Below, piece after piece: positions 53,764 through 55,471 of a DNA stretch of 64,000 nt. How positions within the stretch are numbered: the first letter of the stretch is position 1; each line of letters starts with the position of its first letter. Under the pieces are notes generated by a model, which was not told where the DNA came from, made no database searches, and saw only the letters and a list, made by a program, of their open reading frames with translations. Source of the DNA: Pseudomonas svalbardensis (GTDB taxonomy: Bacteria; Pseudomonadota; Gammaproteobacteria; Pseudomonadales; Pseudomonadaceae); the NCBI RefSeq assembly GCF_030053115.1, contig NZ_CP125619.1, forward strand, positions 869,001-933,000, given 5' to 3'. The position numbers were made by a program, and so were the translations under genes.

Positions 53764-53888
53764 CCTGCAGCTGGCGCAGCCTGCGTCCGGCTGCGCAGCA
53801 GTCGCCAACTCAGTCACTGCGGTTTGTCTGGCTCACTGCGTAATCTTACGACTGCTGCGCAGCCGGACGCAGCCTTCGGCAGCTGCTA
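53764..53888. repeat. REPIN (paired inverted REP sequences)
   Basis: A perfect 24-base inverted repeat occupies 53781-53804 and 53849-53872 with a 44-base spacer. The outer parts also mirror each other: GCAGCTGGCGCAGCCTGCG on the left and CGCAGCCTTCGGCAGCTGC on the right. The right REP has the GCAGCCTTCGGCAGC form common in P. fluorescens genomes. It follows ampE and can act as a transcription barrier. The insertion sequence begins at its outer right edge. Confidence 0.85.
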
Positions 53889-53929
53889 TGTATGGACTCG
53901 CCCCCACTGTCTACCCGCTTTTAAAAAAA

Positions 53930-54125
53930 CTGCCGCCCCGTTGCATCTATGTATTAGGCCTACTCGAGGAAGCCGTCGTCGGCTTCTGGCCAAAATTGGA
54001 AGAGCTCGTGGCATGCCGATTACAGTCAGGCCTCGAAGGCCACTAGCAGCTTAGGCATCTATCCACGCCGGTCTTACCAGGGGTCAATGTTTTTTCAGCA
54101 ACAGGTTGGTCAGTAGGTACCTCGG
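53930..54125 (-). ncRNA. Predicted bridge RNA of the IS110 element
   Basis: Read on the minus strand in the 3' non-coding end. First loop (target binding): outer stem ATGCC/GGCAT (54058-54054 with 54017-54013), inner hairpin GGCC-TTCGA-GGCC (54041-54029), left strand containing AGCTGCTA (54051-54044) and right strand containing CTGTA (54025-54021). These match the left target AGCTGCTA and, as complement, the right target TACAG. Second loop (donor binding): hairpin GAAGCCG/CGGCTTC (53986-53969), left strand with CAATT and right strand with ATACATA (53954-53948), which is the complement of TATGTAT at the element's left end. Exact ends are not known. Confidence 0.7.
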
Positions 54126-54142
54126 TGGCAGAACTCGGTGGA

Positions 54143-55246
54143 TCAGTGGCTCATCGTCGCTTGCTGGCCGTCGGCGGGCTGGCGACGATAAGTCTGGTCA
54201 TTCTGTAAAAGCACCCAGACGATGCGCAGGTTGCGATTGGCCAACCTGACCGCTGCGTCCTTGCGGCCCAATCGGCTCATCCAGCGCAACAAACGGCGGT
54301 CGTCGGGCTGTTGGGAATCAGGTCGCAACTGCTGCAATACCGCGTGGGCACCCTGGATCATCAGGCTGCGCAAATAGCTATCGCCTCGCTTGGTCATGTC
54401 CCCCAGTTGAATCGTCTTCCCGCTGCTGTGCTGATCAGGGACCATGCCGAAGTACGCGGCGAACATGCGAGCATTGGGAAAACGCTCAGGCTTGGTTTCC
54501 TTGGCCACCAGCGCCGTAGCGGTGATTGGGCCGATACCGCGCACAGTCATCAACCGTTTGGCTGTCTTGTCGGCGTTCGCGGCCACTTCCAGGCGTCCCG
54601 TCAGGACGTTGATGCGCTCGCCCAAATGGCGCCACTCGGCCAACAGTTCGTCGATCAGTTCGCGCAACATGGCAGGCACCGGCTGAGTGGCATCCTCCAA
54701 TATCCGCGGGATTCTCTGGCTGATCGCGACGTCGCCCTGTGCCAGCGCAATCCCGTGCTCAAGCAGCAGGCCGCGCATCTGATTACTCACGGCGGTGCGG
54801 CGACGCACGTAACCTTGACGAGCGCGATGCAGTGCCTGCATGGCCAGCGCTGCGACACTTTTGACCGGCACTGCGCAGATCTTTTCGTCGCGACCGGCAC
54901 GCAGGATTGCCAGCGCATCGTTACGATCATTTTTAGGGCCGCTGCGATGCTTGGCCACCAGACCGGCAGGAAGGATCCGCGCCAGGTTGCCTTGATCCTG
55001 CAACTGCCGGGCCCAAGCTTGAGCGCCCGGGCCGGTCTCCATCAGGACCACGACATGAGGCGGCAGCTGGCGGAGAAACTCGTAGAACGCCTCGCGCGAC
55101 TTGATCCGCTGCTCATAATGCACCTTGCCGAGGGCGTCTTCGCCGGCGAGCTGGAAAACATGCTTGGCCAGGTCGACCGCCACGGTAGTGCAGGCCGATA
55201 AATCGGCAGAAGACAAAGATTGATCAATCGAAGTATGCTTTTTCAT
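54143..55246 (-). CDS. IS110-family transposase (RuvC-like plus serine domain)
   Basis: A 367-residue recombinase. The N-terminal DEDD domain begins at VAVDLAKHVFQLAGED (first Asp) and includes VVLMETGPGA and the DRNDALAI pair. The C-terminal transposase_20 domain has MTVRGIGPITATALVAK and FAAYFGMVPDQHSSGKT, the latter holding the conserved serine. All motifs look intact, so the element may be active. The ATG lies exactly at the base of a 12-bp inverted repeat that could hide the start. Confidence 0.93.
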   Translation of the reverse strand: MKKHTSIDQSLSSADLSACTTVAVDLAKHVFQLAGEDALGKVHYEQRIKSREAFYEFLRQLPPHVVVLMETGPGAQAWARQLQDQGNLARILPAGLVAKHRSGPKNDRNDALAILRAGRDEKICAVPVKSVAALAMQALHRARQGYVRRRTAVSNQMRGLLLEHGIALAQGDVAISQRIPRILEDATQPVPAMLRELIDELLAEWRHLGERINVLTGRLEVAANADKTAKRLMTVRGIGPITATALVAKETKPERFPNARMFAAYFGMVPDQHSSGKTIQLGDMTKRGDSYLRSLMIQGAHAVLQQLRPDSQQPDDRRLLRWMSRLGRKDAAVRLANRNLRIVWVLLQNDQTYRRQPADGQQATMSH

Positions 55247-55321
55247 GGACTCGCCCTCGCTGTCGTTGGCTGTTTAGACTGCCACCGTGGCGCATTGACG
55301 CCTCGGCGTGGGCGAGTCCAT
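55245..55321. repeat. 12-bp inverted repeat enclosing the transposase start region
   Basis: ATGGACTCGCCC at 55245-55256 and its exact complement at 55310-55321 are separated by 53 bases. The first copy overlaps the transposase ATG. The same 12-mer occurs at the other end of the element (53892-53903). Confidence 0.85.
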
Positions 55322-55471
55322 TCAATTACAGGACCGCGTACGCCGTGTCGTTAACCTTAAGTTACAAAACCTCTCGCCGATTTGAGCTATACAGAGACAG
55401 CGCCGAATAGTGGCTATCTGCTCTCGACCCGCGCCTGCCAATAAAAATAAGAAATCAAAGGGAGACTTCCA

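Follow-up and report, generated by a model that had tools for sequence, protein, structure and literature searches.

The window analysed here, a 64,000-nucleotide stretch of the 6.36 Mb Pseudomonas svalbardensis genome, contains an insertion sequence of the IS1111 type (IS110 family), which interrupts an inverted pair of REP sequences. Its overall layout is as follows (a slash in a sequence marks the insertion point or element boundary).

53889 to 55328, minus strand: insertion sequence, IS1111-type, IS110 family, 1440 bp (ends taken from six copies in one genome and from uninterrupted GTA/GCAGCT REPs)
Within 53889 to 55328, minus strand: left extension TAATTGA (7 bp) and right extension ACA (3 bp), outside the sub-terminal inverted repeats
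53892 to 53903, minus strand: sub-terminal inverted repeat of the right end, 12 bp
55310 to 55321, minus strand: sub-terminal inverted repeat of the left end, 12 bp
53887 to 53888, no strand: core TA at one junction (other copy at 55327-55328)
53769 to 53888, no strand: target, a BIME-like inverted REP pair with its GTAG tag cut at the TA (window sequence and uninterrupted relatives L172-L177)

Ends and insertion site of the element

Six normal copies in this genome read, in gene orientation, left flank-TGTA/ATTGA-ATGGACTCGCCC ... GGGCGAGTCCAT-ACATA/GCAGCTG. Because uninterrupted REPs of the same genome read GTA/GCAGCTG (ten sites in six stretches), the element is placed at the TA common to both sides, inside the GTAG tag by which one REP super-family is defined, according to the description in PMC3733652. 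The convention described for IS1111 elements, with 7 bp and 3 bp beyond the inverted repeats (PMC11187229), sets the bounds at 53889-55328, giving the extensions TAATTGA and ACA outside repeats of 12 bp each, within the 11-13 bp usual for the group. The right-end repeat is identical in 19 of 23 elements read and one base off in the other four, and the non-coding sequence is longer downstream of the recombinase gene tnp (254 bp) than upstream (82 bp), as in IS1111 elements. No orthologous empty site with the same REP was found in 57 genomes; matches to the flanks were present, the one spacer that was read (L170, genome G011) contains another REP, and same-class REPs left uninterrupted elsewhere in the own genome were used as a stand-in. 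Plasmid searches returned only short pieces by blastn (6 records) and only matches below 60% identity by tblastn (2567 records), so that no close relative can be named from them.

Two irregular copies were also seen. A 93% copy in the same genome (L014, G000:C1:5182509-5185259) has a right end made of the repeat followed by a left end in inverted orientation (CCAATTACAAGGG), an arrangement that could have arisen if the sequence between two repeats of a tail-to-tail pair was deleted. At the 3' end of the element in genome G255 (L087), the right end is tandemly duplicated and joined exactly at a TA to TAGGCCTGATACATA, a sequence within the element's own RNA gene, which may reflect self-targeting.

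The recombinase gene, its leader and a putative junction promoter

54143 to 55246, minus strand: tnp, encoding a DEDD/Transposase_20 recombinase of 367 aa (PF01548, PF02371, NF033542)
55245 to 55256, minus strand: third inverted-repeat copy, which overlaps the start codon of tnp and pairs with 55310-55321 in the leader RNA
53908 to 53913, minus strand: putative -35 element TAGACA of a promoter complete only once the right and left ends join (CATAAT, 17-bp spacing)

The Tnp protein combines the DEDD/RuvC and Transposase_20 domains of the IS110 family (PF01548, 43.7 bits; PF02371, 82.7 bits), and matches NF033542 at 281.6 bits (cut-off 140), the family model beginning at residue 21. Its translated motif GMVPDQHSSG fits the C-terminal G--P----S(t)G motif that is described as characterising the IS1111 group (PMC11187229), with M where IS1111 has L. 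The length of 367 aa lies outside the 330-350 aa of IS1111 transposases, a range given in the same description as their usual spread and not as a criterion (PMC11187229). Residues 140-273 also give a sub-threshold match to the TIGR-Tas endonuclease model NF052498 (25.1 bits, cut-off 100). Tas and IS110 proteins are reported kin, with which this match agrees.

The third, inner repeat copy is identical in 11 of 23 elements, with at least one base altered in the rest. The predicted fold of the leader (55245-55328; -43.2 kcal/mol, z -5.7, none of 200 shuffles as good) places the start codon and the ribosome-binding region inside a 12-bp stem, and by analogy with ISPpu9 the leader may limit translation. 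The putative junction promoter reads TAGACA-17-CATAAT here, and all 23 elements read (a raw count) have a candidate -35 with at least four of six consensus bases at a spacing of 17 or 18.

The non-coding region and its conserved fold

An original prediction, made from the window sequence alone, had proposed that the 3' non-coding end contains a bridge RNA with guides for its own insertion site.

53936 to 54089, minus strand: conserved core of the candidate bridge RNA/seekRNA in the 3' non-coding region (18-sequence alignment, covariation and covariance model R1)
54007 to 54067, minus strand: target-binding stem-loop, comprising the next three helices
54063-54067 with 54007-54011, minus strand: basal helix CGTGG/CCACG of the target loop (changes on both sides in three of five pairs, 100% of cells paired)
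54054-54058 with 54013-54017, minus strand: stem ATGCC/GGCAT of the target loop
54038-54041 with 54029-54032, minus strand: apical GGCC/GGCC of the target loop (hairpin GGCC-TTCGA-GGCC, 54029-54041)
53957 to 53999, minus strand: donor-binding part, GGCC 53988-53991 with GGCC 53957-53960 and an inner GAAGC/GCTTC hairpin (alignment and covariation)

Every string quoted in that prediction is present in its place on the minus strand (ATGCC/GGCAT, GGCC-TTCGA-GGCC, AGCTGCTA, CTGTA, ATACATA, and CCAATT at about 53995-53999). The two stem-loops, in the order expected of a bridge RNA, are likewise borne out by the alignment, where they are conserved with compensatory changes; a 3' end lacking conserved structure had been named as evidence against the prediction. 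The RNAalifold consensus has 32 pairs, six with changes on both sides, and across the 24 pairs of both loops 99.3% of cells pair, with six pairs changed on both sides. Against shuffles, this 24-pair structure was equalled in 0 of 500 on four of five measures and in 4 of 500 on the fifth, and slid versions also fell far below it. Most of the covariation signal comes from the basal helix of the target loop, while the outer helix of the donor loop is invariant and hence uninformative on structure. Minimum-energy folding of this single sequence does not return the two-loop structure, its best fold being another, and the single-sequence energy is unremarkable for both the non-coding region and the core (63 and 33 of 200 shuffles as good, respectively).

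When existing models were searched, as the prediction had proposed, Rfam returned no family above its gathering score and five sub-threshold matches, none to a bridge RNA. Among these, mir-4672 and MIR8622 lie on the REP inverted pair (53768-53885), not in the non-coding region, and were dismissed as palindrome artefacts. Since no Rfam family matched, a covariance model, R1, was built in this analysis from 18 RNAs, with the flanks not used. Searched at class level against 369 genomes, the RNA model matched in 5 apart from the own. In the distant RNA relatives from other families (L151-L157), a homologously placed segment agrees with the flank; read by eye and without statistics, the match spans 7 nt in L152, L153, L156 and L157, 9 nt in L154 and only 5 nt in L151, that is, 7-9 nt in five of the six loci read.

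Covariation of the target guide with the flank

54044 to 54051, minus strand: target guide AGCUGCUA, 8 nt including the core TA, pairing with the top strand TAGCAGCT of the right flank (guide/flank comparisons)

On the minus strand, AGCTGCTA (54044-54051) is identical to the plus-strand left flank at 53881-53888, so that the claimed identity of the guide with the left flank up to the TA core extends over 8/8 positions. TGTA stands to the left and GCAGCTG to the right of all six normal copies in the own genome, and their right flank is complementary to the guide; the seventh copy, the abnormal L014 with its rearranged right end, scores 0/8.

The comparison was extended to relatives through a protein search (30 loci from genome contigs; 18 of 398 genus genomes with a match; at most five copies scored per genome in the genus search) and through a search with the RNA model (loci in 14 of 398 family genomes; 30 loci, of which six lie in genomes seen before, L134 and L143 are unscored and 22 are new). 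Left out were L019-L024, which seem to come from the G129 assembly itself; L031, L032 and L120, in whose loci no right end was found; the fragments L033-L044; and G022, G069, G187, G269 and G270 (fragments or about 40% identity).

Of 62 copies scored in 17 genomes, 57 match at 8/8, four at 7/8 (L084, L102, L117 and the sole copy of G046, which has a truncated tnp), and only L014 at 0/8. When each genome is represented by a single copy, guide and target agree at 101 of 102 non-core positions; shuffling the targets among genomes gives a mean of 74.5, and none of 100,000 shuffles reached 101. In 16 of 17 genomes, the approximately 250-nt non-coding region contains the reverse complement of the 8-nt target just once, and in the homologous position, the miss being G046. 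The ninth position is mismatched in all 62 copies listed, and the guide is therefore taken to end at 8.

Replication on the 22 new loci gave 20 matches at 8/8, the exceptions being L132 (5/8) and L133, for which an extra T has to be allowed at the junction. A single copy from each genome gives agreement at 66 of 66 non-core positions across 11 genomes (regular copies of G469 and G667 used), and inclusion of the two irregular copies gives 159 of 168 across 28 genomes; neither figure was reached in 100,000 shuffles. Relatedness makes such shuffles optimistic, and repeated changes are therefore the better argument: a 25-row protein tree (L132 and G046 entered with their own irregular targets) requires at least 11 guide changes and at least 11 target changes. 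Over all loci there are nine guide types, AGCUGCUA and AGCUCCUA among them; the types CGGUCCUA and CCAUCCUA, new from the RNA-model loci, each come with the predicted flank. The guide thus covaries with the target, as is expected of a bridge RNA. Copies in discordant flanks had been named as the other ground for rejecting the prediction; instead, the six normal own-genome copies agree, and relatives with other flanks carry correspondingly altered guides.

The second target guide and the donor guides

54021 to 54025, minus strand: second target guide, read as CUGUA, of which only GUA is constant on both sides
53948 to 53954, minus strand: right-donor guide AUACAUA, equal to the right end ATACATA (7/7 in 17 of 17 genomes)
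53995 to 53999, minus strand: left-donor guide CCAAU (4/5 against the left end ATTGA of this element)

The prediction of guides for target as well as donor is upheld, with a second target guide that shrinks to GTA and a left-donor guide that is imperfect here. The CTGTA proposed as complement of the right-flank TACAG is present, and its GTA is constant in both RNA and flank, but the T and C before it do not covary among the 59 copies with both parts readable, and a guide beyond GTA was not supported. Six copies have C in the guide at the T place, and the flank of every one has T. At the C place, C stands in the flank of 27 of the 40 copies that have C in the guide, and also of 11 of the 19 that have A there, an agreement of 28/59. 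As in seekRNAs, the segment matching the top strand (AGCUGCUA) lies 5' of that matching the bottom strand (CUGUA), the latter being weak.

The right-donor guide, predicted as ATACATA complementary to TATGTAT, is sound: one of the 17 genomes has a matching change on both sides (ATATATA), and the match is 7/7 in 10 of 11 new genomes and 6/7 in G554. The left-donor guide had been read as CAATT; its CCAAT part covaries with the left end, with one mismatch here (CCAAT for the expected TCAAT), and the next two bases (TT here, GT in others) mismatch the TA core. Over 17 genomes, 75 of 85 positions agree (12 of 20,000 shuffles as high), with matching changes in CCGAU/ATCGG and CUGAU/ATCAG; the match is 3/5 in helleri, G255 and G012, and 4/5 in five of the 17 genomes including this one. 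Covariation of guides with the donor ends, a further mark of bridge RNAs, is therefore seen for both, imperfectly for the left.

Guides and REP classes

REP classes are described as differing between clades of fluorescent pseudomonads (PMC3686654). Sites of five kinds (TGTA followed by GCAGCT, GGAGCT, GGAGCC, GGAGCG or TGTAAGAGCG) were counted in 11 genomes. GCAGCT sites number 167 in the own genome (G000) and 154 in G129, the only two that carry the corresponding guide; each of the remaining nine has between 1 and 7. In 10 of the 11 genomes, the class that matches the resident guide counts 70 sites or more, and in seven it is the commonest of the five, the exceptions being G129, G182, G264 and G275. 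In G182, all five scored copies lie in GGAGCC (153 of 794 sites) though 615 GGAGCG sites are present (binomial tail 2.7e-4), in G264 four of five lie in AAGAGCG (12 of 927 sites; 1.4e-7), and in G275 four of five lie in the class of their own guide. The evidence for site choice is weak in G000 (0.043) and G012 (0.035), and G255 (0.093), G098, G104, G139 and G230 are uninformative. The copies L100-L104 of G264 have the guide CGCUCUUA and lie in another repeat (TGTAAGAGCGAAACCATAAG...), not in GTAG REPs.

These counts bear on the possibility that REPs are recognised by the recombinase protein without help from the RNA, whose match would be an inherited coincidence. All these elements use GTA on the left, and REP specificity of insertion sequences was described before guides were known (PMC1525189). 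Near-identical proteins (above 89%) nevertheless use GCAGCT (G000, G129) or GGAGCT (ERMR, lini, G275), exactly as the guide base differs, and in G129 all five scored copies lie in GCAGCT (154 of 1949 counted sites; binomial tail 3.1e-6) despite 867 GGAGCT and 904 GGAGCG sites, making recognition by protein alone very improbable.

For guide-directed choice, an explanation to which we give even chances is that the guide is anchored on the invariant GTAG tag while its following bases read the class-specific REP stem, so that changes of one to three bases would move the element to the REP class proliferating in the host it currently occupies. In that case the lineage would be tracking REP/RAYT turnover from host to host, and in G264 would have abandoned REPs for another repeat, amounting to natural, replicated bridge-RNA re-targeting driven by host repeat content.

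Proposed mechanism

The 3' non-coding region very probably encodes a seekRNA/bridge RNA that, with the recombinase, selects both DNA partners. The ends, the core, the identity of guide and flank, their covariation and that of the RNA helices can be read directly from the compared sequences, and the joint change of guide and landing site constitutes strong comparative evidence that the RNA picks the site. In the proposed mechanism, the bridge RNA would bind the recombinase and select target and donor: in the target loop, AGCUGCUA would pair with the top strand of TAGCAGCT, the right half-site of the REP, with GUA agreeing with the left half-site, while in the donor part AUACAUA and CCAAU would pair with the right and left ends, which are joined in the excised circle. 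Recombination at the common TA would then place the element in the GTAG tag of REPs, always in the same orientation. In relatives, small guide changes would have switched the target to other classes of REP and, in one genome, to a different repeat. Transcription and processing of the RNA, its binding by the recombinase, the circle intermediate and strand exchange are presumed from ISEc11, ISPa11 and IS621.

That the region is instead a regulatory sRNA, with the guide-like match as a by-product, has a precedent in Ssr9 of ISPpu9, described as a sense sRNA of about 180 nt downstream of tnp that pairs with the antisense Asr9 (PMC8450116). A regulator would have no reason to track the external flank at 8 bases in nine types, and a purely regulatory RNA appears as improbable as recognition by protein alone; the two roles are not exclusive and may coexist. 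Capture of a functionless flank copy, from which identity to the current flank would follow, can practically be discounted, as up to six copies per genome with one guide lie in different places and surroundings with the same 8 bases, and the identity stops there, at the mismatched ninth position.

Relation to known systems and significance

Bridge RNAs or seekRNAs of IS110 and IS1111 elements, natural re-direction (ISEc11/ISXne4) and the REP-targeting IS1111 element ISPa11 are already published (PMC11187229, PMC11208160), and the element therefore belongs to a known kind, adding a further member to a guide mechanism known since 2024. Compared by its published description, ISPa11 (IS1111 group, P. 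aeruginosa REP, seekRNA sequenced) shares the downstream non-coding region, sub-terminal repeats, REP target and a top-strand-matching segment preceding the bottom-strand-matching one (PMC11187229). ISEc11/ISXne4 (IS1111 group, natural and experimental re-direction) likewise combine a guide change with a target change among relatives; as described, they form one pair with 3 of 13 target bp in common, (PMC11187229), whereas nine guide types, several of them differing by a single base, are linked to REP classes here. IS621 (IS110 group) is described with a two-loop RNA, target and donor guides, a 2-bp core and a DEDD + SG recombinase, but differs in having its non-coding region upstream and in lacking long sub-terminal repeats (PMC11208160, PMC11208158); the PDB sequence match of Tnp to the IS621 structures covers only residues 225-297. 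ISPpu9 and ISPpu10, IS110-family occupants of P. putida REPs, share the family and the REP target, but their described ends and core differ (PMC1525189, PMC8450116). ISPpu9 also has a 5' leader limiting translation, a role that the leader here may share, but its leader is 244 nt long and the element has an AG direct repeat (PMC1525189, PMC8450116).

A literature search (without preprints, with few subscription journals, and hence no proof of absence) found no paper on guide changes following REP classes in Pseudomonas. Less expected than the mechanism itself are the small guide changes that appear to move the element between REP classes, with GCAGCT abundant only in the two of 11 counted genomes that use that guide. 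The covariance model supplies bridge RNAs of this IS1111 branch with a descriptor that Rfam lacks. The family also provides a natural experiment for RNA-guided recombinases, in which relatives differing by a single guide base insert in REP classes differing by the matching base, fixing the effective guide at 8 nt, with the 7/8 copies indicating mismatch-tolerant positions, and linking the programming of a mobile element to the repeat content of its host.
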